DNA of 64,000 bases from Synechococcus sp. PCC 7336 (GTDB lineage Bacteria; Cyanobacteriota; Cyanobacteriia; Thermostichales; PCC-7336): NCBI RefSeq assembly GCF_000332275.1, contig NZ_CM001776.1:3103737-3167736 (forward strand). Reading direction: 5' to 3'. The notes under the pieces were generated by a model that did no database searches, was not told where the DNA came from, and saw nothing but the letters and a program-made list of their open reading frames with translations. The position numbers and the translations under genes were made by a program. Of the stretch, positions 15,291 through 53,762 are shown in pieces (within the stretch, counting starts at the first letter, position 1; the number at the start of each line of letters is the position of its first letter).

Positions 15291-15856
15291 GCTGAGCTAC
15301 CCGATTTGAAAAACTGTTCGGAGTATTGAGCCTTTAAGATGTGTAGAAAATAATTTTTTGCCTTTCCAAAGTATAGTATTTATTAAAATTTAATTTAACT
15401 GGAGTTGCATACTTTTTAGCTCTTATTCTTCTTTTCAATGCATTAGTATTGTGCTAGTCACAAAGTTTAAGCCCTTGCTCTGAATCTCCCGATCTCTGCA
15501 ACTGGAACTAGCAGCCACTCTCTAAACTCGCTGAGGCCAGACTTTTATTGTCTGGGAGAAAGGCTAAAAACTAGTTACCTTCAGTGGATTCGGAGCTAAT
15601 AGGTTTGGAGGTCGAAGTGATAGCTGAGTGGTATATAAACCTATAAAATTTTAGCAGTTCGAGCAGATTGACTGCTGCCAAAATTGAAGTGAACCTCGTC
15701 TCCTATCGCAATCGATTGTCACTAGCCATCTAATTTTCTAGAAGCTATACTTTAATAAGCAATTCGATTGGGCTTCTGTCGGGCAATTAATGAATTCTAA
15801 TTGTTTGCTCGAGCGTCAATCTTATTCAGGTCTTGCTGACCTGAGGGAAATATGTT

Positions 15857-50448: not shown

Positions 50449-51330
50449 GTGGGTTTCTGGGATTGGCTAGTTGTTAGTGGCTATCTGCTCGTCATGGCGA
50501 TCGGCGCAGTTTACCTCGGAAAGGGTCAGAAGTCCCGTTCCGACTACTATCTCGGCGGCCAGAAACTGCCGAGCTGGGCGCTCGCGACCTCAATTGTTGC
50601 CACCCAGACCTCAACCAACAGCCTGCTCGGCGCACCAGCTTTTGTGGGATTCGTGCTGGGGGGCGGCATGCTTTGGCTGCAGTACGAACTGGCAGTGCCA
50701 CTGGCAATACTGCTGCTCTTGCCGTACTGGCCATCATGGGCATTACCGTTTTTTACGACTTGCTGGGGGGAATGCGGGCGGTTGTGATTAGCGATGTGGT
50801 GCAGTTGGTCTTGTTGCTGGGGGCCGTGCTGCTGGCACTGTTCAGTTTGGTGGGGCCGCTGGCGACCCACTTCAATGCGCTTGGCGATCGCACTCTCGCC
50901 TTGGCGAACGATTGGGGCTTCACCTCTGGCAACGACTATGGCTTTTGGCCCATGCTCGTAGGCGGCTTGTTTCTTTATATGGCCTACTACGGCTGCGATC
51001 GAAAGTCAGGCTCAGCGGTTGCTATCGACCCCCAATGTTGCGGAGACACAGCGGGTGTTGGTACTGAACGGGCTGATTCGTTTCCCTCTGGTGCTGGCCT
51101 ACTGTCTGATGGGGCTGGGGCTTGCTGCCTATAGTGTGGAGCATGTTGACTTCATTGCCTCGTTGCCGCTGACGGAGGCGGGTGCGCCCAATTTCAACCT
51201 GGTGTTTCCGGCGTTTGTCGAACGGGAATTTGCGCCGGGAATTGTGGGCCTTGCCATTGTGAGGTTATTCGCTACGGCCATGTCGTCAATCGATTCAGCC
51301 TTGAGTGGAACGAATGAGATTCCATGCGGA
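50449..51330 (+). pseudogene. Sodium/solute symporter (SSS family) pseudogene
   Basis: The 5' frame begins with a good SSS start: DWLVVSGYLLVMAIGAVYLGKGQ, SDYYLGGQKLPSWALATSIVATQTSTNSLLGAPAFVG. After YELAVPLA the sequence jumps to VLAIMGITVFYDLLGGMRAVVISDVVQL in another frame, so a segment of about two helices is missing. A second frameshift near 51000 splits YYGCD from SQAQRLLSTPN. The gene breaks off after SSIDSALSGTNE near 51320, losing the last helices. At least one internal deletion, two frame breaks and a 3' truncation make it non-functional. Confidence 0.88.
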
Positions 51331-51639
51331 TCGAGTCAGAGACTCCAGCCAAAAGTTTTTTGGGAGAGCGTGCCATAAGCGACAACTTGATTTAAGTCCG
51401 ACCGGTCCGGCTAATTATCTATTTCGGCATGCTAGGCGGATAAGATACGACTTCTGGATCGAAAATCTACTGAAAGTTTTCACCTGAACACATATTTGAT
51501 GTGTACTATATGATAGTATGTCGTATTAATCACTTCAATCGGAGTGTTATGCGGATTTTTGCTCTCTAACTACCCTCCTCAAGGGTATTATGCGGAATAA
51601 GTCCGTCTAATCAATAGTTAATAGATCGCTGCAAGCAAG
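51331..51639. other. Gene-free stretch between the symporter remnant and the first TA cassette
   Basis: About 300 bases, AT-rich, with two copies of TTATGCGGA (51547-51555 and 51589-51597) and an inverted ATACGAC/GTCGTAT pair. GTTATGC at 51546-51552 could be the half-site of a decayed attC upstream of the first cassette, but no convincing partner arm was found. Confidence 0.35.
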
Positions 51640-51670
51640 TGACACCGAATGCGGTGCTATAATAGTGTCA
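51640..51670 (+). promoter_or_regulatory. Promoter and operator-like symmetry of the PIN TA pair
   Basis: A consensus -10, TATAAT, at 51657-51662 lies only 7 bases before the toxin ATG, so the transcript is nearly leaderless. TGACAC on its left and GTGTCA on its right form an inverted repeat spanning the -10, and CACCG-AATG-CGGTG is nested inside. Such symmetry fits autoregulation by the ribbon-helix-helix antitoxin. No good -35 was seen. Confidence 0.55.
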
Positions 51671-52110
51671 TGGCTACTGTACAGTCATTCCATGTTGTCA
51701 TTGACACTAACGTTGTGTTTGAAGGCTTAACAAAGCGAGGTGGTACTGCAGGGCTGATAGTTGAAGCCTGGTTAGCTGGTTTACTCAATGTTTATGTTTC
51801 AACGGCACTCGCCTATGAGTACACCGATGTCTTGTCTCGTAAACTTTCCGCAGCTCGCTGGCAAAAACTTCGGCCTGTTCTAGGCACATTACTCGACTGT
51901 GCCCAATTTGTGGCGATTTACTATTCTTGGCGGCCTACCTCACCAGATGCAGGCGATGATTTGGTGGTTGACTGTGCAATGAATTCAGATGCAACAGTTA
52001 TTACATCTAATCTTCGAGACTTCCAAAGCGCGAAAGAGTCTCTTGGAGTTGAGGTAATGTCCCCCGTTCAATTGGTAATGAAACTAGCATCAGTGGAAGG
52101 TGAAGCATGA
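51670..52110 (+). CDS. PIN-domain toxin ribonuclease
   Basis: 146 residues. Predicted endoribonuclease of a type II toxin-antitoxin module, COG1569-like. PIN acidic residues are visible in VIDTNVVFEGL (N-terminal Asp), the central ALAYEYTDVLSR (Glu) and DAGDDLVVDCAM plus TSNLRDF (C-terminal Asps). ATG 51670 follows the -10 closely. It overlaps the antitoxin start by four bases (ATGA). Base composition is AT-richer than surrounding core genes. Confidence 0.87.
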   Translation: MATVQSFHVVIDTNVVFEGLTKRGGTAGLIVEAWLAGLLNVYVSTALAYEYTDVLSRKLSAARWQKLRPVLGTLLDCAQFVAIYYSWRPTSPDAGDDLVVDCAMNSDATVITSNLRDFQSAKESLGVEVMSPVQLVMKLASVEGEA

Positions 52111-52442
52111 GTCGATTAACCCTTCGCTTGCCAGAAACACTACACCAGCAACTGGTTAATTTGGCTGATAGTGAAGGTGTTTCTTTAAATCAATACATTG
52201 TTTATTCACTGACGCGACAAGTTGCATCAGCTTATACTGTTCGGCCAGTATCTGAAGCCGATGTTAATATGCAAAAACAGATGTTTAAGTCTCTTTTGCA
52301 AGAATTAGGAGAGGCATCCCCATCTGAGGTTGAAGCAGCATTAAATGAACGAGAACTGGTTCAACCAGAAGAAGAAATGAACTCCGAAGCTGTTGCTCGC
52401 CTTCAACAACGGATACGAGACGCTGTTGAAGCATCATCATAG
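52107..52442 (+). CDS. Ribbon-helix-helix (HicB/CopG-like) antitoxin
   Basis: 111 residues. The N-terminal 45 residues (SRLTLRLPETLHQQLVNLADSEGVSLNQYIVYSLTRQV) form a ribbon-helix-helix DNA-binding domain; the rest is an acidic helical tail that should wrap the toxin. It is the partner of the PIN toxin, coupled by a four-base overlap. It is unusual in being second, after the toxin. An attC-like site begins 13 bases downstream. Confidence 0.85.
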   Translation: MSRLTLRLPETLHQQLVNLADSEGVSLNQYIVYSLTRQVASAYTVRPVSEADVNMQKQMFKSLLQELGEASPSEVEAALNERELVQPEEEMNSEAVARLQQRIRDAVEASS

Positions 52443-52454
52443 AAGAGAGTCGAG

Positions 52455-52540
52455 AGCTGACACTGCATTGGTGCGGACGGAACGCAGGTTATCATTGGCT
52501 GTTTAAGGTTATCTGCCGCCGCACAACTTCATCGTTAGCC
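52455..52540 (+). repeat. attC-like integron recombination site 1
   Basis: R''-like AGCTGAC (52455-52461) and R'-like GTTAGCC (52534-52540) bracket complementary arms. The left arm TTG-G-TGCGG-A-CGG pairs with CCG-CCGCA-CAA on the right (52517-52527), leaving single unpaired G and A on the left arm, as in the extrahelical bases of attC sites. The centre (CAGGTTATC with GGTTATCTG) extends the stem. Core boxes are imperfect. Length 86 bp is within the attC range. Confidence 0.62.
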
Positions 52541-52827
52541 TTCTAATCCCTAGTAGGATGATCGCAATGTTTGTGCATACATTTAGAAAGCGATGTAAGC
52601 TTCTTTTTTCACGATCCCTATGGTTTTTGTGGGATTAACGTTGTTACTGTTTGAAAATTATCCATCCAATCAGCCACTACGTCACTTCTCCAAACGTACC
52701 ACTCACCGTATCGATACGCAAACGTGCTGTGCTTATATTTCGAGTTTACTTATCGACCAGTGAGTTCCCCCATTAGGCTACCTAGCAAGGATATGTAACC
52801 TGAAACGTTATGGGTTGCAATCTATGG
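52541..52827. other. Leader of the second cassette, no gene
   Basis: About 290 bases between attC-like site 1 and higB. No supportable frame; AT-rich. It should carry the promoter for higBA, but none was clear. Confidence 0.35.
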
Positions 52828-53115
52828 ATGATAGTTAGTTTTAAGCATCGGGACCTACAGCGATTCTTCGAATCAGGAACAACCCGAGGCATCCAGGCAA
52901 AGCATGCCAAACGAATTCGGATGATTTTAGCTCGCCTAAGTGCTGCAACTTCTCCGCAAGACATGAATTTGCCTGGACTGGTACTTCATGAGCTGACAGG
53001 ACAACGCAAAGGGACTTGGTCAGTGAGGGTATCTGGAAACTGGCGGATTACGTTTGACTTTGATGGCGTTGATGGCGTTGATGCCTGCGATATCGATCTT
53101 GAGGATTACTACTGA
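52828..53115 (+). CDS. higB: HigB/RelE-type toxin
   Basis: 95 residues, ribosome-dependent mRNA interferase fold. Family segments are [59 protein letters not shown]. The C-terminus has a short duplication (GATGGCGTT twice, 53061-53078) encoding GVDGVD, extra to the usual FxFxxGxAxxVDxxDYH ending. ATG 52828 is taken; an earlier start would add six residues. The stop overlaps the higA start (TGATG). Confidence 0.9.
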
Positions 53116-53402
53116 TGAAAATGCATAATCCGCCACATCCTGGTGAAGTTCTCAAGGAGCTTTGTATCGAACCGTTGAATTTGACTGTAACTGAAGCTGC
53201 CGAAGCGTTAGGGGTAAGTCGTAAGACCCTATCCGCCATTTTGAATGGTAGAGCAGGTATTAGTCCTGAAATGGCTATTCGGTTGAGCAAAGCTTTTGAT
53301 ACATCTCCTGAAAGCTGGCTCAATCAGCAAATGCAGTACGATCTTTGGCATGCAGAGCAGGCAATTGGTGACATTGAGGTCAAACGTCTATCTGTTGCCT
53401 AA
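53115..53402 (+). CDS. higA: HigA antitoxin (XRE family)
   Basis: 95 residues, HTH protein of the HigA type: [57 protein letters not shown]. It neutralises HigB and should repress the operon. The toxin-first order is the hallmark of higBA. Its TAA stop lies inside the R'' box of attC-like site 2, so the recombination site starts within the coding end. Confidence 0.93.
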
Positions 53403-53490
53403 CCTGCGCATGCACTCGGACGCTTGTCTTGTCGTGCTATTTGAATTTTGTTTCAATTTCCTCTCGCGCCGGTGATGCTTATCGTTAGGC
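53397..53490 (+). repeat. attC integron recombination site 2
   Basis: R'' GCCTAAC (53397-53403) and R' GTTAGGC (53484-53490) are perfect to the RYYYAAC and GTTRRRY consensus and complementary to each other. Inside, the left arm GCAT-g-CAC-t-CGG-a-CGC (53408-53423) pairs exactly with GCGCCGGTGATGC (53466-53478), leaving three single extrahelical bases on one strand; a 5-base TTATC spacer separates L' from R'. Total length is 94 bp. These are the defining features of an attC site. Confidence 0.82.
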
Positions 53491-53492
53491 AT

Positions 53493-53762
53493 GAAGACTT
53501 TTTCGCCGAAGCCGGTCTGGCTTGTCGCCCGGTGGAGGAGGAGTTGCTCGAACAGTTGCAGCAAGCGGATGTCCTCCACCTGGATGAGACTGCCTGGTAC
53601 GAATGGGGGTGGCTCTGTTGGCGGTGGGTTGCCACCAGTAATACGATCGCGGTCTTCTTGATTGGCCGACGCACCAAACAGATGCTGTTGCACATCGTCA
53701 CGACGGCGTTTGTGGGGGGGGTGGTCAGCGATGGCTATGGGGCCTACGCCAAAATTATCTAA
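53493..53762 (+). pseudogene. IS66-family transposase fragment
   Basis: About 90 residues of the catalytic region: ADVLHLDETAWYEWGWLCWRWVA, the first catalytic Asp in LDET, and FVGGVVSDGYGAY with the second Asp. Both ends are missing and no inverted repeats are visible. The left edge abuts the R' box of attC site 2, as if the fragment landed at or was captured by that site. Not functional. Confidence 0.82.

Follow-up and report, generated by a model that had tools for sequence, protein, structure and literature searches.

How two toxin-antitoxin (TA) cassettes come to lie between attC sites in a cyanobacterial chromosome, with no functional integrase adjoining them, is the question raised by this locus. 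The window, a stretch of 64,000 nucleotides, lies within a 5.07-Mb single-contig chromosome. The locus at 51323-53490 is read here, with a probability of about 0.88, as a degraded chromosomal integron whose integrase was lost in situ and in which the attI site and two TA cassettes survive. Its attC sites, attI, the stub of its integrase gene (intI), the TA families and the broken intI copies elsewhere are all assigned from sequence.

Two attC sites and their TA cassettes

The attC sites were located with R1, a covariance model built afresh and distinct from the published attC model. R1 derives from 13 attCs outside the window, 11 from other arrays of the same genome and two from other cyanobacteria, with candidate sites collected mostly from arrays beside intI. 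Two other searches were rejected as detectors and used for candidate collection only: R-box pairs ranked by fold energy yielded dozens of false sites, and scoring by arm alignment produced ~10 hits per 64 kb when run on shuffled sequence. The R1 consensus displays attC anatomy, with R''/R' arms, L''/L' arms, a variable end and single unpaired bases confined to the L'' side. Compensatory change is visible at 11 of its 19 predicted pairs, where some sequences have both sides altered and pairing kept.

Searched against the 64-kb window, where its E-values are to be taken as rough, R1 matches attC1 (52455-52540, plus strand; 48.4 bits, E = 3.2e-11) and attC2 (53397-53490, plus strand; 41.6 bits, E = 2.7e-9), with no further match up to E = 10. 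A first-pass annotation had placed an attC at each of these positions and would have withdrawn them had a covariance model scored both low; a model trained without the two sites recovers both. An Rfam search of the window gives no matches. attC1 is bounded by an imperfect R'' box, AGCTGAC, and by R' GTTAGCC; its DNA is 82-84% identical to two other attCs of the same genome, and many relatives have attC1-like DNA, in most cases 75-88% identical. In attC2, the R'' GCCTAAC and R' GTTAGGC boxes pair at 7/7 positions, and unpaired bases occur on the L'' arm only. The bottom-strand folding advised by the annotation bears out the arms of attC2, and the fold energies of the two sites prove ordinary against shuffles (z = -1.1 and -0.2). 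Such energies, unexceptional for the composition, would suit chance inverted repeats or terminators that happen to lie close to TA genes. That explanation was rejected as exceedingly improbable in view of the covariance-model scores of both sites, the attC homologues found elsewhere in the genome and in many other genera, and the position of both sites at cassette ends. Fold energy by itself is not diagnostic of an attC; the evidence is the conserved attC pattern. The two sites stand in tandem and in one orientation, each after a gene, as in a complete integron.

Cassette 1 (51618-52534, plus strand) extends from the attI crossover to the G of the attC1 R' box; the annotation had begun it at 51546, and its start is corrected here to 51618, after that crossover. 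It contains a gene for a PIN-domain protein (51670-52110, plus strand; PF13470, 5e-17; TIGR00305 below its cut-off), overlapping by 4 bases a gene for a ribbon-helix-helix (RHH) protein with a HicB/Arc-like N-terminus (52107-52442, plus strand; PF05534). The pairing is that of a type II TA system, in which PIN is the predicted toxin and RHH the predicted antitoxin. An inverted repeat, TGACAC-N19-GTGTCA (51640-51670, plus strand), encloses a TATAAT box just 5' of the PIN start codon and is likely the promoter and operator of the cassette; a promoter scan returns a weak consensus match only. RHH relatives occur in 23 of 386 sampled cyanobacterial genomes, the source genome included. In G014, an attC lies directly 3' of RHH and the PIN/RHH region, with its PIN frame broken, sits between two attCs; in G008, an attC is found just upstream of the RHH gene; in G393, from a different sample, RHH is followed by an attC beneath an attI-like head. 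The remaining RHH relatives have no R1-detectable attC.

Cassette 2 (52535-53484, plus strand) runs from the attC1 crossover to the attC2 crossover and consists of a HigB-like gene (52828-53115, plus strand; PF05015, 1.5e-17) followed by a HigA gene (53115-53402, plus strand; TIGR02607, 117 bits; cut-off, 47.7), the arrangement of a type II HigBA system with predicted toxin and antitoxin roles. Both TA pairs named in the annotation are therefore present where it put them, as the Pfam and TIGR matches attest. The higA gene terminates within the attC R'' box, its TAA stop forming part of GCCTAAC, in the window as in G280. HigB is 86-89% identical in five genomes from three other families (G280, G312, G095, G241 and G296), and the G280 copy, at 88% identity, lies between two attCs. 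After the higA stop, L174, L176 and L177 carry half or mutated attCs (judged by eye, unscored), L178 retains little beyond R'' and L175 has lost the region, both also by eye. This similarity across families indicates that the gene has been exchanged within the phylum, in many cases next to an attC that is decaying.

Comparison of attC2 (53397-53490) with L173, L174, L176 and L177 reveals a common higBA gene and R'' box and a different attC beyond R''. The higBA gene seems to have changed its attC, an apparent attC swap.

Related genomes with the same TA genes and no sites had been named in advance as evidence against the cassettes. Most PIN/RHH and HigBA relatives indeed lack an R1-detected attC; this does not overturn the assignment, since attC remnants can still be seen at the corresponding position in several HigBA relatives, and TA genes are found outside cassettes as well.

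The ends of the array

The attI region (51377-51617, plus strand) is recognized by DNA homology, ends at the crossover G51617|T51618 and includes about three ~41-bp direct repeats (...TTATGCGGAAT...CTCTAATCACC...). The DNA at 51395-51620 matches 4251474-4251651, immediately 5' of the intI fragment at that locus, and the attI DNA also matches 4583317 and 3073319 in the same genome. Five aligned attI copies, including that of G393, agree through ...ATAG|TTA and diverge beyond, the pattern predicted for a single attI that has received different first cassettes. The same attI family extends to another genus: it occurs in G066 beside intI residues 1-165, and in its congener G002 the attI homologue stands beside intI residues 1-44 only; the two share 93% identity from the start of intI through attI and part at GTTA. 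Homology to the intI-linked attI copies at 4251 kb and in G066 places an attI at the head of the array.

The ~41-bp repeats number two or three, depending on the locus, among the window (51485-51617), L011, L015, L016 and L068. At L016 (G000 3071819-3075046), an attI of this family without intI adjoins a transposase gene, followed by an ATPase-like gene.

Next to attI lies a putative intI 5' stub (51323-51376, minus strand), comprising the start codon and ~18 codons in total (MARSPKKLLAGVSDSIRM), the remainder being deleted. Its translation, MARSPKKLLAGVSDSIRM, is comparable with QKLLDRVRDSIRM in the 4251-kb intI, whose N-terminus is QKLLDRVRDSIRMKHYSYRTEQ...; the identification is based on this alignment, ~18 codons being too short for a significant search match. 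A genome-wide search for intI gives no match within the window, and no intact intI stands beside attI. Past the stub, the minus strand enters a broken sodium:solute symporter (SSF) gene (50449-51322, plus strand; Pfam SSF matches in two frames), which is frame-shifted, ends abruptly after ...SSIDSALSGTNE and forms the left flank of the remnant. The annotation had reported no integrase in view, which holds insofar as no functional integrase adjoins the array; the intI stub and attI had escaped it.

With attI and an intI stub to its left, the array is best explained as a chromosomal integron with a deleted integrase, and the same two elements argue against cassettes that strayed into a naive chromosome. 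A related proposal, that of a true CALIN, holds that no integron ever stood here and that a trans-acting integrase put the cassettes into a secondary, attG-like site. Three intI loci elsewhere in the genome and dispersed single attCs, present in the source genome and other cyanobacteria, are in keeping with it. Off-target insertion would leave a flank unrelated to attI and intI; the left flank is instead attI plus the intI stub, homologous to integron heads elsewhere, which largely refutes the proposal and makes it very unlikely.

On the right, an IS66-family transposase gene fragment (53508-53762, plus strand; PF03050) cuts the remnant; over 240 bp it is 90% identical to the copies at 3495016 and 2679272. 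Its homology to intact copies begins only at 53508, and it is for this reason taken as a later truncation. Cassette insertion inside an IS66 gene was considered, because a GTT occurs close to the corresponding position in intact IS66 copies, and was rejected given that starting point of the homology.

For a degraded integron, we infer the following order of events. The integrase would have inserted two TA cassettes at attI, with crossover at 51617|51618, giving the order attI, PIN/RHH, HigBA. A later deletion would have fused intI codon 18 to the convergent symporter gene, with loss of both 3' ends; the symporter and intI being convergent, one deletion would remove both, and the simplest of the possible readings has just one such event at the left end. 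The IS66 fragment would afterwards have cut the right side. The remaining attI, two TA cassettes and two attCs would now be fixed, and the TA pairs would have been selected, probably persisting through their own expression signals and the cost of antitoxin loss. No intact counterpart of this very locus was found in a close relative.

Excision in trans is conceivable in principle. The search for intI elsewhere that the annotation suggested did uncover three loci, all broken in the assembly: at 927338-928277, two halves whose frames differ, separated by a single extra base; at 2574022-2575093, three pieces; and at 4251138-4251437, residues 1-99 only. A cellular integrase that still excises the TA cassettes and inserts others at attI would find both attCs well formed and attI preserved, and one intI copy is nearly complete except for its frameshift; should that frameshift at 927 kb be a sequencing error, as it could be, an active integrase could be present. 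With every intI locus broken, continued mobility is nonetheless judged improbable, about as much so as insertion into an attG-like site. As a degraded integron, the locus directly displays how one integrase-less attC cluster arose, a matter on which surveys usually can only guess.

Integrons in the genome and across Cyanobacteria

About 49 attCs in some fourteen clusters are distributed over the genome, and other TA genes in its cassettes include PemK/MazF-like, ParE with Phd, HigA-like, BrnT, and DUF433 with DUF5615. A nearly identical RHH/PemK-like TA cassette with its attC is found at L010:14760-15425 and L011:11180-11845, in integrons ~1.7 Mb apart, which may be a sign of past exchange between them. 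In the array at 2.58 Mb, a cassette (L010:9770-10291) encodes a DarT-like protein (PF14487). Tandem cassettes of ~180 bp without an ORF occur at L009:15305-15845 and L010:9579-9758 and 15426-15785 (G000 ~933, 2575 and 2581 kb); they consist of a ~90-bp attC and a ~90-bp spacer that hardly varies, and recur in several arrays of the genome; the spacer might carry a promoter.

The phylum was sampled through 386 cyanobacterial genomes, with intI accepted at E up to 1e-40 and attC by R1 at E up to 1e-4. intI is found in 31 of the 386, a count that may miss some copies as many of the assemblies are drafts. attCs, whose counts are lower bounds, are found in at least 84 of the 386; the 302 genomes without an attC match serve as an internal negative control for R1. 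Both elements are present in at least 26 genomes, and their association is strong (26/31 versus 58/355, Fisher p = 1.4e-14, the genomes not being independent). At least 58 attC-bearing genomes have no intI at the threshold, and at least 33 of these carry three attCs or more. A laxer intI search in 12 of these 58 detects intI-like fragments in five, none above the family cut-off, which means that some of the 58 hold intI remains.

The annotation held that integron cassettes are seldom noted in cyanobacteria; integrons are not new to the phylum, having been recorded there in previous surveys (PMC2426708, PMC8618304), and an attC model specific to Cyanobacteria is published (PMC8352920). Its suggestion of cassette traffic into the phylum likewise gives way to residence and exchange within the phylum, as the intI and attC counts show. 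The stages of intI loss are residues 1-165 (G066), 1-99 (4251 kb), 1-44 (G002) and ~18 codons (window). A broader proposal, held at even odds, is that integron cassettes in Cyanobacteria routinely outlive their integrases: intI would be lost repeatedly, by steps that can still be seen, with attI and frequently TA-bearing cassettes remaining. The outcome would be a pool of orphan cassettes across the phylum, which have nevertheless exchanged genes and swapped attCs between lineages. Together, the phylum counts and the locus suggest that integrons have had a wider distribution in Cyanobacteria than the scattered occurrence of integrases implies, and that TA cassettes form part of the residue once the integrase has died.

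Relation to known systems

Cyanobacterial integrons and attCs are already known (PMC2426708, PMC8618304, PMC8352920), as is intI loss that leaves an array behind. Like the attCs of PMC8352920, the two window sites are chromosomal and belong to the same phylum, and were scored here with a separate model, R1. TA operons as cassettes in chromosomal integrons have been reviewed (PMC8618304), and the window likewise carries TA operons as cassettes; it differs in that its TA pairs are cyanobacterial HigBA and PIN/RHH and in having the HigA stop within the attC R'' box. In Xanthomonas chromosomal integrons, intI has been inactivated or deleted with cassette arrays kept (PMC12444791). The likeness lies in arrays that outlast intI and in integrase-less attC clusters scattered over the genomes that carry such arrays, whereas the Xanthomonas integrons belong to another phylum, occupy the ilvD locus and have other attI sites and cassettes, and the window keeps two TA pairs.

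The first-pass annotation called the locus CALIN-like, which is apt for two attCs close together with no integrase gene nearby, the definition used by IntegronFinder 2.0 (PMC9024848), and falls short where attI and the intI 5' stub adjoin the array and make it a decayed integron. Loss of intI is one of the mechanisms of CALIN origin quoted in PMC8618304, and here such an origin is visible. In conclusion, the locus is a CALIN by the operational rule and an integron remnant by its anatomy.
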